Origin: an uncultured Prevotellaceae bacterium
Lineage (GTDB): Bacteria > Bacteroidota > Bacteroidia > Bacteroidales > Bacteroidaceae
Assembly: GCA_947304115.1 (NCBI GenBank)
Contig: CAMZAE010000001.1
Span: 124,001-188,000 of the forward strand
Reading direction: 5' to 3'
DNA length: 64,000 nt
The stretch's first letter is position 1. Each line of letters starts with the position of its first letter. The notes under the pieces are model-generated. The model searched no databases and had not been told where the DNA came from. It worked only from the letters and a program-made list of their open reading frames with translations. Of the stretch, positions 6,129-62,589 are shown one piece after another. Position numbers and translations under genes: made by a program.

Positions 6129-8213
6129 ATGAAACGACATGATTTGTTTATACTTCTTTGGACTATTTGTCTCTGTTGCTTTGGCGAGCCTGGAAAAATT
6201 GTCGGGACTATTGGCGACAAGGCCGTGAAGACCTATCGAAAGAAGATTCCCCTGCAGGCTGAAGGCTATTACATAAAGGTAACTCCGAAGGAAATTGTAG
6301 TGGCAGGCAGAGACGAGAGCGGCCTCTTCTATGGGAAACAGGCATTAAAGACGCTCTCTAACACTTCCTTAAAGGGAGAGGACCTTTTCAAATTTCTAAA
6401 GTCCCAATATAAAGAAGTCTCTCCTTTAAGGGGAGATTCTGATGGGGCCTTTGAAATCCGTGATTGGCCGAGCGTCAGTTGCAGAGGCGTCATCGAGGGC
6501 TTCTACGGCAATCCTTGGAGCCACGAGGACAGGCTTCGGCAATTCGACTTCTACGGCAAGCACCGTCTGAACATCTATGTATATGGTCCGAAGGATGATC
6601 CTTATCATCGTGCGCATTGGCGCGAACCTTATCCCGAGGCAGAAGCTGCAAAACTGAAGGAACTTGTCGAGGCTGCGCATCGTAATAGGGTGCAGTTCGT
6701 TTGGGCCATTCATCCCGGAGGCGACATCAAGTGGAACCTTCAGGATAGCTTGGCCGTGGTGAAGAAACTTAACCTCATGTACGACCTCGGCATACGCACC
6801 TTTGCCGTCTTCTTCGATGACATCGGGGGCGAGGGCGCAAGGGGCGAGAAGCAGGCCGGCTTGATGAACTACCTGACCGACAACTTCGTCCGCAAACACA
6901 AGGATGTGGAGCCGCTCATCATCTGTCCAACGCAGTATAACAAAGCGTGGAGTGGCGGCGACTATCTCTCCACGCTTGGCACAAAGATGTACCCAGAGGT
7001 GCGCATCATGTGGACGGGCAACAGCGTGGTCGATATGATAGAGCGCGACGATATGGAGTGGATAAACGCGCAAATTAAGCGCAAGGCGTTCATCTGGCTC
7101 AACTATCCTGTCAACGACTACTGCCAGAGCCGCCTGCTCATGGGCAAGACCTACGGCAACGGCCTCGACATCGCAGACCTTGTATCAGGCTTCTGCAGCA
7201 ATCCGATGGAATACGCCGAAGCCTCGAAAGTCTCGCTCTACAGCATTGCCGACTACTGCTGGAACATGCCAGCCTACGATGCCGAGAAGTCCTGGGAAGA
7301 TGCACTCGACGAGTTAATGCCTACAAGCCGCGAGGCCTTCCGCTTCTTCTGTGAAAACAATGTCGATTTAGGCAAAACATATCATGGTTTGCGTCGCGAT
7401 GGCGAAAGTCCTGAGTTTAGGAAGGTCCCGAATGACGTCTATTTTAGTCGGCTTGTAACAGAAGCCGACGCTCTTCTTGCCGATAGCCTCTCACAGCCGG
7501 AGATGCTTAGGGAGATTGCACCGTGGGTGGAAAGTATGCGAGTGCTTGGGCAGAGAGGCTTGCAGGTGATGGCGATGCAAAAAGCACTGGAGGCGGCAGA
7601 CACCGTCGGCTTCATTGCCCATTACCGTGCAGAGCAACGACTCGAAGAAAAGCAGAAGTCCATCATCAGTCGCAACTACGAAGGTTCCGTCGTCAAGGCA
7701 AAGCCCATCGTTAGCGGCACCATAGTTACACCTTGGGTGAACGAAGAAACGCTTCAACTTGTCAAGAATTACAAGAAGAACTTTGCTTATGGTCTTGAGT
7801 TCCTTCCCCAGCAAGTCATCGAAGACGGAGCATACTTCATCAAAGCCAACGGGAAGTTCTTGACTGATGTCAATGCTTCAGCAGAAAGAACGGGCGATTG
7901 TCCTGTTTTTGTGGCGGAAGCCGACACCATCAATCCGCAGAGACAACTCTGGAACATCGAATTAATACCTGCCACGGGCCGCTATAAGATAACTAACGTA
8001 CAGGATGGACGCTATTTGAATGAACGCGGAACTTTTTGGCAGGACAAAGCCCAGAATCCTTTCGATGCAGACTGGCACACTTTCGTCATTGCAAAGACAG
8101 AGGGAGGCTACACCATTCAGTGTGGAGGTCGTGGAGGTTCTGGCTATTGGGTTACAGAGAAAGACCGCATCAAAAATGATAAGAAAGGAACTGTATTCCT
8201 GATAGAAAAATAA
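6129..8213 (+). CDS. GH84 beta-N-acetylglucosaminidase (O-GlcNAcase-like), secreted
   Basis: RGVIEGFYGNPWSHEDRLRQFDFYGKHRLNIYVYGPKDDPYHR, VWAIHPGGDIKW, FFDDIGGEG. Confidence 0.93.
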   Translation: MKRHDLFILLWTICLCCFGEPGKIVGTIGDKAVKTYRKKIPLQAEGYYIKVTPKEIVVAGRDESGLFYGKQALKTLSNTSLKGEDLFKFLKSQYKEVSPLRGDSDGAFEIRDWPSVSCRGVIEGFYGNPWSHEDRLRQFDFYGKHRLNIYVYGPKDDPYHRAHWREPYPEAEAAKLKELVEAAHRNRVQFVWAIHPGGDIKWNLQDSLAVVKKLNLMYDLGIRTFAVFFDDIGGEGARGEKQAGLMNYLTDNFVRKHKDVEPLIICPTQYNKAWSGGDYLSTLGTKMYPEVRIMWTGNSVVDMIERDDMEWINAQIKRKAFIWLNYPVNDYCQSRLLMGKTYGNGLDIADLVSGFCSNPMEYAEASKVSLYSIADYCWNMPAYDAEKSWEDALDELMPTSREAFRFFCENNVDLGKTYHGLRRDGESPEFRKVPNDVYFSRLVTEADALLADSLSQPEMLREIAPWVESMRVLGQRGLQVMAMQKALEAADTVGFIAHYRAEQRLEEKQKSIISRNYEGSVVKAKPIVSGTIVTPWVNEETLQLVKNYKKNFAYGLEFLPQQVIEDGAYFIKANGKFLTDVNASAERTGDCPVFVAEADTINPQRQLWNIELIPATGRYKITNVQDGRYLNERGTFWQDKAQNPFDADWHTFVIAKTEGGYTIQCGGRGGSGYWVTEKDRIKNDKKGTVFLIEK

Positions 8214-10877: not shown

Positions 10878-11032
10878 TACCTTTGCACGCCGATTATTAT
10901 CAAAGGGGCACAAAACTGTCCCTTCGAAGCGTGTGAATAGTCCGCATCATTGGCCTGAACGGACGGTTCGTGAATCGCAACGAAACAAGAGAAATAACTT
11001 AGGTAGAAACAAAAACAAAAGTAAGACAAAGA
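10878..11032 (+). promoter_or_regulatory. Promoter and structured leader upstream of rplM (candidate r-protein leader)
   Basis: TACCTTTG at 10878-10885; hairpin AAGGG..CCCTT about 10903-10924; GTCCG (10940-10944) / CGGAC (10960-10964). Confidence 0.5.
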
Positions 11033-61008: not shown

Positions 61009-61056
61009 AGAGGTCGCTTTCTGTTGCTCACCTTTATCGGCCTGGCCTGTCCAAAT

Positions 61057-61126
61057 GTTTGCTCATACATGTAGAAGCGATTGCTCATACATGTATAAGC
61101 AATCGCTTCTACATGTATGAGCAAAC
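61057..61126. repeat. 28-bp perfect inverted repeat, 22-bp periodic
   Basis: GTTTGCTCATACATGTAGAAGCGATTGC (61057-61084) / GCAATCGCTTCTACATGTATGAGCAAAC (61099-61126); TACATGTA at 61066, 61088, 61110. Confidence 0.95.
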
Positions 61127-61164
61127 AATGTTATGATTTACAGCAGGCGCAAGGTGCTAAAGCA

Positions 61165-62277
61165 TCAATGTACGCGTACGGGCCGGACGCTATAACCATA
61201 GCGGCGGAAGGCATTGCCGGAGTCGCCGGTTAAGGAGAAACCGGCGCTGTAGAACATAAGGTTGTACGCGTGATAAGAGGTGTTCGTGTTGAGTGAACGC
61301 GACCAATAGTAGCCGTAGCCAGGTGAGTAGAGACGCGTGCTTATGCGCCCGTCCGTAGCTGGCAAGAAAATACTATTACCGTTGTTCTTGCTTGTTATCT
61401 TCCTACCTTTCACACCATTATGCGTCGTCCATGTAGTCGTTGCGTAGTTGTACAATTCTTTTATCTGGTCAGGGCTCGGCATCTGCCAACCGCTGCCCCA
61501 ATTCGCGGTCGCAGCATCGTCCTCAGGCTCAAGCTCAGTCTTGTTGTCCGTGAAGCCCTTGTAGCCGTCGTTGCTTCGAGTGCAGTACTTTGTCAACGTG
61601 TTAATCGAGCCATTGCACCATTTGTATGTGCTCCAGTTGTACTCGTTCTTCGGCTCCGTCTCGCCCCAGGCGAAGTAGTCGCCGTACTCCTCGGGCTTGC
61701 TGGCACCCACATTGCATGTCGCCCAAAGGGTGCCGCTTGGCAGGCCGAGGTCAACATACTCATGTTCATTACCAGTGTTTCCAGAATCACCGTTGCTTCC
61801 TCCTTCACTGTTATGACTTTCTTGTAGCCTGATGAATGTAAAAAGTCCGTATTCCTTTCTTTGCCCATCACTAATCTCATAGTAATCCTCATAGAACTCT
61901 GCTGTCAATACATTTCCAGCAACACGAGTTATTACCAAACGTTGGCTGCTGGCATCCCCACTACCAACACCTCTGTAGTCATTCGTACCCACTTGCTCAA
62001 AGTTTCCTGGAATGTCAGGGACCGTTGATGTTATGTGTAACTTCCCATCAACTTTAGTAATACTCAAACCTCGCGATGTGGTTTCGGCATACGTTTCAAG
62101 ATTGCCAGTAGGATCAATACCGCCTCCTTTAGTATATTTCGACCACGCTACCGACTCTACGCGCCATGTACCTTCCACTGTGGCACCCCCAGCACCGCTT
62201 TCGTCGTCACCATTATTGCAAGCAGCAAAACACATTGGCAATACAGCCAATAACAATAAATAGTAATACCTTTTCAT
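61165..62277 (-). CDS. Lipoprotein with FISUMP (Fibrobacter succinogenes major paralogous)/C-type-lectin-like C-terminal domain
   Basis: MKRYYYLLLLAVLPMCFAACNN lipobox; EYVDLGLPSGTLWATCNVGASKPEEYGDYFAWGETEPK...NWGSGWQMPS...IFLPATDGR...YYWSRSL...GYSVRPVRVH. Confidence 0.82.
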   Translation of the reverse strand: MKRYYYLLLLAVLPMCFAACNNGDDESGAGGATVEGTWRVESVAWSKYTKGGGIDPTGNLETYAETTSRGLSITKVDGKLHITSTVPDIPGNFEQVGTNDYRGVGSGDASSQRLVITRVAGNVLTAEFYEDYYEISDGQRKEYGLFTFIRLQESHNSEGGSNGDSGNTGNEHEYVDLGLPSGTLWATCNVGASKPEEYGDYFAWGETEPKNEYNWSTYKWCNGSINTLTKYCTRSNDGYKGFTDNKTELEPEDDAATANWGSGWQMPSPDQIKELYNYATTTWTTHNGVKGRKITSKNNGNSIFLPATDGRISTRLYSPGYGYYWSRSLNTNTSYHAYNLMFYSAGFSLTGDSGNAFRRYGYSVRPVRVH

Positions 62278-62349
62278 TTTAATTAATCTCATTTTGTTTA
62301 ACATTTAATTGCTTCTTCATAATATAATTGTTTTAGAATGTTTATCAAA

Positions 62350-62520
62350 CAGGGTACAAAAAGAAAACGTGGACTTCTTCGTCTACGTTTCCCAGGTATC
62401 GCCAAACACCTAACAGTCATATACGAGTAAAAGCCCACGCCTTGGCGTGAGCATCCGTGCTTTTACTCTTGACTGTTTCTTCAATTGGCGATTTGGGAAA
62501 CAAGAATCTAAGCGGACGCT
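62350..62520 (-). ncRNA. Compact structured RNA/DNA element between ORF6N and FISUMP genes
   Basis: Minus strand: GTTTCCCAaATCGCCAA / TTGGCGATaccTGGGAAAC; CAGTCA..GAGTAAAAGC / GCTTTTACTC..TGACTG; GCTCACGCC-AA-GGCGTGGGC; terminal AAACGTAGAC-GAAGAA-GTCCACGTTT followed by TCTTTTT. Confidence 0.65.
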
Positions 62521-62589
62521 TCTTTATGTATGTCTCAATTCTTTTGTTTACTTCATTGGCAGGACAAAATTGGAAATGAAATTATGGTT

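Follow-up and report, generated by a model that had tools for sequence, protein, structure and literature searches.

A large RNA family of Bacteroidota that looks like an on/off switch for outward-facing genes

Introduction

In attenuators of the trp and his type, 1:2 and 3:4 pairing of the leader segments alternates with 2:3 pairing. Antibiotic-resistance genes of the ABC-F class have attenuators with very short upstream open reading frames (uORFs), encoding MIN for VmlR, MR[I/M] for CplR and MAGN for LsaA (PMC10201436). For the fthC motif (uORFC-39-1) of Streptococcus, the rate of initiation was proposed as the signal (PMC11109978). FopS, a trans-acting small RNA family of Bacteroides, consists of a single-stranded 5' stretch and one terminator hairpin (PMC11697453).

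Here we analyzed a window of 64,000 nucleotides from an uncultured Prevotellaceae bacterium (contig CAMZAE010000001.1, positions 124,001 to 188,000). Its minus strand carries a structured element at 62345-62556, and all features of the element described below are on that strand. We compared the element with its homologues and find that it looks like an unrecognized, widely used on/off switch for outward-facing genes.

Results

The element belongs to a large RNA family absent from Rfam

An earlier note on this DNA had described three stems and a second hairpin, and all of these are present in the window copy. The element extends further 5' than that note had drawn it and reaches a start-stop mini-ORF at 62548-62556, giving an RNA leader of about 230 bases. 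The 211-nt region folds at -71.7 kcal/mol, compared with -45.4 +/- 4.1 kcal/mol for dinucleotide shuffles (z = -6.4, 0/200 shuffles). The structure of the window copy is genuine and far beyond chance.

The homologues place the window element in a large RNA family that is missing from Rfam 15. No Rfam 15 family matched the window element or its divergent copies. Low-threshold matches to Rfam miRNA families in the region fell mostly on a neighboring palindrome, and the others were weak. Elsewhere in the window, an L13-Bacteroidia ribosomal protein leader (10904-10976) scored above the Rfam gathering score. Another locus with a copy of the element (L193) holds two matches to DUF805 RNA (RF03081; 3380-3445 and 4344-4412), one of them directly after the element.

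The window genome contains four strong copies, the other three being 77-88% identical to the window copy. Covariance-model searches of this genome added weaker copies, and one further copy is degenerate (G000:C37, locus L011, about 7566-7740). Within the genus, 71/121 genomes carry the element. The covariance model R1 detected it in 94/151 genomes of the family, 70/198 of the order, 35/197 of the class and 19/198 of the phylum sample (E up to 1e-5, or 1e-4 for the phylum; the genome samples partly overlap). Among the named species, Paraprevotella clara, Prevotella disiens and Hoylesella buccalis (strain ATCC 35310) carry copies. These homologues across genus, family and order bear out the suspicion that this is a recurring Bacteroidales intergenic element.

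In the viral contigs of IMG/VR, which may be free phage or host DNA, a strict pattern gave no match. A looser search preselected 39 loci by a 16-mer of the element, and 19 of these were confirmed by the covariance model. Bacteroides phage BS-TP1 has a weak covariance-model match (42.7 bits), and a search of plasmids found no copy. We found no description of this RNA in open-access PMC text; published lists with thousands of candidate RNAs (e.g. PMC8040213) may hold fragments of it.

Two mutually exclusive folds are backed by covariation

Comparison of the copies reveals two mutually exclusive predicted folds, each backed by covariation: a terminator fold with 1:2 and 3:4 pairing (OFF), and an antiterminator fold with 2:3 pairing (ON). 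The ON fold is rod-like and comprises P1, P1b, P2b, P2a and P3, plus a small P0 and a local hairpin. P1 pairs 62494-62501 with 62387-62394 and covaries in 7/7 pairs counted. P1b pairs 62485-62491 (TCGCCAA) with 62399-62405, with C-G in 70 and G-C in 24 copies at one pair. P2b pairs 62470-62477 with 62412-62419 and covaries in 6/6 pairs counted. Segment 2 (62444-62471) includes the 5' strands of P2a and P3, and segment 3 (GGCGTGGGCTTTTACTCGT, 62423-62441) supplies their 3' strands. Across 95 copies aligned at a mutual identity below 86%, 93.7% of cells in the ON fold are paired, compared with 34-42% in a slid control, and there are 391 double changes against 124 +/- 14 after shuffling. Double changes occur at every counted pair of P1 and P2b, so these stems differ among the copies of one genome and the shape is kept.

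For the OFF fold, 93.1% of cells are paired, with 81 double changes against 27 +/- 4 after shuffling. Here segment 1 (GAAGCGTCCGCTTAGATTCTTG, 62501-62522) pairs with segment 2, and segment 3 becomes the 5' arm of a predicted terminator whose 3' arm is segment 4 (ACGAAGAAGTCCACG, 62368-62382). A U-run recognized by sequence (TTTTCTTTTTGT, 62356-62367) directly follows segment 4. The terminator is tipped by hairpin H4 (GGTG-TTTGGCGA-TACC, 62395-62410), in which GGU/ACC and GGC/GCC covary and whose loop contains the 3' strand of P1b. The earlier note had proposed competing, riboswitch- or attenuator-like folds, and double changes far above shuffles in both folds support that proposal. It had placed the competition at AAAC; the folds do compete, and the competition involves the whole element rather than AAAC alone.

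We also exchanged partner segments between copies, a statistic that ignores how the copies are related. Among 67 divergent copies, the exchange strongly weakened 1:2 (z = -11.4), 2:3 (z = -13.2) and 3:4 (z = -16.7) pairing. The control pairings 1:3 and 2:4 showed no effect in these copies, and the control 1:4 was weakly non-random (z = -3.2, 2/2000). A separate second test also backed 3:4. Among close copies, 1:2 (z = -9.9) and 2:3 (z = -3.5) were affected. Covariation of 3:4 is absent in the close copies, where segments 3 and 4 barely vary, so this set is uninformative on 3:4.

The two folds of the window copy are nearly equal in energy (-57.5 and -56.9 kcal/mol). Over 110 close copies the ON fold is the more stable by a mean of 4.4 +/- 4.8 kcal/mol, tertiary contacts being left out. 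The P3 variants comprise 57 G.U cells and a single A.C cell, a bias that points to the transcribed strand as the one under selection. The excess over all helices is small (G.U 127, A.C 92), partly owing to the imperfect alignment of P1 and P2b.

The better-supported terminator candidate is long-range, segment 3 with segment 4 directly before the U-run. The local second hairpin (AAACGTAGAC/GTCCACGTTT) was rejected as the sole terminator, as it retains an A.C mismatch in most copies and the core 3:4 pairing has none. Mismatch-free pairing of the arm of this hairpin with segment 3 would explain why the mismatched C is retained. We dropped a reading of GGU/ACC as an H-type pseudoknot over P1b because the linker of about 1 nt is too short for a 7-bp stem, and we now take it to form H4 of the OFF fold. 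Since the H4 loop is the P1b 3' strand, P1b may persist in the OFF fold as a loop-loop helix. A third pairing, of segment 4 with the bases just before the start codon, was found in divergent copies (0/5000). It lacked support in close ones (59/2000) and was therefore kept out of the core model.

A probable transcription attenuator with a start-stop mini-ORF

We consider it probable that the element acts in cis, as a transcription attenuator within the 5' leader of the surface-protein gene that follows it. In the OFF state, pairing of segment 1 with 2 would leave segment 3 free for segment 4; the resulting long, GC-rich hairpin and the U-run behind it form a predicted terminator that would end transcription ahead of the gene. 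In the ON state, pairing of segment 2 with 3, together with P1, P1b and P2b, would block the terminator and RNA polymerase would read through. By sequence, the terminator-like hairpin and U-run lie between promoter and gene, and the antiterminator and terminator pairings exclude each other. Comparative data on helices 1:2, 2:3 and 3:4, on the mini-ORF of Bacteroidales, on the leader position and on the link to exported proteins are all consistent with this model. We infer that the hairpin and U-run terminate transcription and that some input regulates the choice of fold.

The mini-ORF (AUG, 0-2 codons and an in-frame stop; ATG AAG TAA in the window copy) is present in 121/126 close copies, compared with 10 and 30 for the other two frames. 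Its context is typically GCCTATG, about 40 nt before segment 1. The stop is TAA in 90 copies, TAG in 17 and TGA in 17, and ATA replaces ATG in 7 copies. The use of three stop codons in one conserved frame argues for translation of the mini-ORF. In 28/69 divergent copies (15.7 expected), a mini-ORF lies within 75 nt, most often 25-41 nt upstream of the element, and outside Bacteroidales it is often absent. Our best guess is that the input is the translation state at this start-stop mini-ORF, which lies close to the 5' end of the mRNA, and that a helper protein may take part. The very short uORFs of antibiotic-resistance attenuators (PMC10201436) make such translation sensing plausible. The median distance from the mini-ORF stop to UUCUUG in segment 1 is 42 nt, so a ribosome on the mini-ORF is not expected to reach segment 1, and the classical covering mechanism is not directly applicable.

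The hexamer GACATA (62529-62534), located between the mini-ORF and segment 1, is conserved and unpaired in close copies. This would suit a protein or RNA acting on the leader, and it is possible, if doubtful, that the fold is set by an RNA-binding protein or by an RNA acting in trans, with segment 1 or GACATA as conceivable binding sites. Bacteroides offers a precedent in RbpB with its multicopy RNA partner FopS (PMC11697453). However, we found no candidate gene, and GACATA is absent from many divergent copies.

A ligand-binding riboswitch would be the same attenuator with a different input: P1/P1b/P2/P3 would form an aptamer for a small molecule (e.g. a second messenger), segments 3 and 4 would be the expression platform, and the mini-ORF would have another role. 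The complex fold with conserved unpaired bases, the ON/OFF logic and the many copies over unrelated accessory genes fit this reading. We nevertheless regard it as rather unlikely, as the downstream genes have no common metabolic theme, the strong conservation of the mini-ORF frame speaks for translation, and the P1b sequence is exchanged wholesale in divergent copies, which is unusual for a ligand pocket.

The element is a leader of the gene downstream

Position relative to the promoter and linkage to the downstream gene favor the regulatory leader, one of several roles that had been suggested for this element. A Bacteroidetes-type promoter box (TAnnTTTG) is found 25-70 nt before the mini-ORF in 54/124 copies, mostly at 30-39 nt; in the window copy this box is imperfect (CAATTTTG). 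In close copies, the median distance to the next start codon is 57 nt. Similarity of flanking regions between copies was seen downstream in 175 pairs, upstream in 64 and on both sides in 8, so the element goes with its downstream gene. The downstream protein is exported in 105/123 close copies (p = 4e-31) and 41/62 divergent copies (p = 7e-8), against a background of 250/810 (31%) for the 810 genes of the same loci, export being called by a crude signal-peptide rule.

Families downstream of close copies include BspA-type leucine-rich repeat (LRR) proteins (34/114), dockerin proteins and outer membrane barrels. Divergent copies precede TonB-dependent receptors, response regulators and restriction-modification proteins, and the genes downstream in viral contigs encode an HsdR-like protein, an LRR protein and lipoproteins. 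Several class-level (L201-L228) and viral (L246, L254) copies precede restriction-modification rather than surface-protein genes. At three divergent loci (L162, L165, L173), a reading frame starting like MIHIGKLIEEELHRQERSV directly follows the element; by eye it encodes a small regulator, in contrast to the exported proteins found at other loci.

In the window, the downstream gene (61165-62277, minus strand) most likely starts at 62277 (MKRYYYLLLLAVLPMCFAAC) and encodes a lipoprotein-like surface protein. It had been called a FISUMP lipoprotein gene: the lipoprotein character holds and the product resembles FISUMP by eye, but it has no Pfam or NCBIfam match. A 13-codon frame (MKKQLNVKQNEIN, 62279-62320) ends one base before the likely start. 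After the gene lies a near-perfect palindrome (TGCTCATACATGTAGAAGCGATTGCTTATACATGTATGAGCAATCGCTTCTACATGTATGAGCA, 61055-61129), whose repeat family has 57 matches in this genome, both strands counted. The degenerate copy on G000:C37 precedes another surface-protein gene, the end of which resembles FISUMP.

The promoter box in many copies and the terminator-like end could also belong to a free-standing small RNA with its 3' end at the U-run and a role in trans, in which case the downstream gene would be transcribed from a start of its own. Such an RNA would hardly call for the consistent short distance to an exported-protein gene or for flank similarity that is mainly downstream. A promoter box in the 60 nt after the U-run was found in just 3/126 copies and was missing in 123, which makes this main role improbable.

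A mobile element or single-stranded-DNA recombination site, perhaps recognized by ORF6N as had also been suggested, would suit a multi-copy, palindromic sequence that is often near contig ends and occurs in viral contigs, but we reject it as very improbable: the copies of one genome all differ, with compensatory changes in their stems, the P3 bias points to selection on the transcribed strand, the mini-ORF frame is conserved, neighbor similarity is mostly downstream, near-identical copies moved independently of their neighbors (as in MITE-like elements) were not found, and ORF6N lies upstream in only 4/126 copies and downstream in 0/121. These counts also speak against any general link between the element and ORF6N.

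Discussion

If the attenuator model is right, one family of RNA switches lies ahead of surface-protein and restriction genes in much of the phylum Bacteroidota, which dominates the communities of gut, rumen and mouth. The element often occurs in several copies per genome and has been outside Rfam. Its targets would include BspA-type LRR proteins, dockerin proteins, lipoproteins, TonB receptors and restriction systems, providing a handle on the regulation of what these bacteria display to hosts and phages. It would also be a clear case of a role for a bacterial AUG-stop mini-ORF. With hundreds of natural variants that have predicted ON and OFF folds, the model is directly testable. More speculatively, and with less confidence than we place in the attenuator itself, the family might be an orphan sensor RNA found throughout the phylum and linked to translation by its start-stop codons. 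Bacteroidota and their phages would use it to turn a scattered regulon on and off, made up of genes for surface proteins, secreted proteins and defense against phages.

Like the element, FopS is a multicopy RNA family of Bacteroidaceae with a terminator hairpin at its end. FopS is in Rfam and acts in trans, whereas the element is outside Rfam and would be a two-fold leader acting in cis. We reject identity with FopS because the element does not consist of a single-stranded 5' seed and one hairpin, its fold differs and it has no Rfam match.

The fthC motif shares with the element a structured leader, an AUG with a nearby in-frame stop, and a terminator stem. It concerns one gene in one genus, whereas the element is a family across Bacteroidota ahead of many different genes. 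The ABC-F attenuators likewise have a very short uORF, alternative folds in the leader and premature termination, which is predicted here. Their uORFs have 3-4 codons and control resistance genes, whereas the element has 1-3 codons with an immediate stop, ahead of surface and defense genes.

With the trp and his attenuators the element shares four segments, antiterminator and terminator pairings that exclude each other, a leader ORF close to the 5' end and a predicted terminator before the gene. Unlike theirs, its mini-ORF lacks regulatory codons and does not overlap segment 1, which begins about 40 nt further downstream, so that the trp-type arrangement of an overlapping leader ORF rich in such codons is not found. 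Its ON fold adds P1, P1b and P2b, and its targets are many unrelated surface and defense genes. The element appears to represent a new, attenuator-like RNA family, with a start-stop mini-ORF and a set of putative targets not seen in regulators of that kind.
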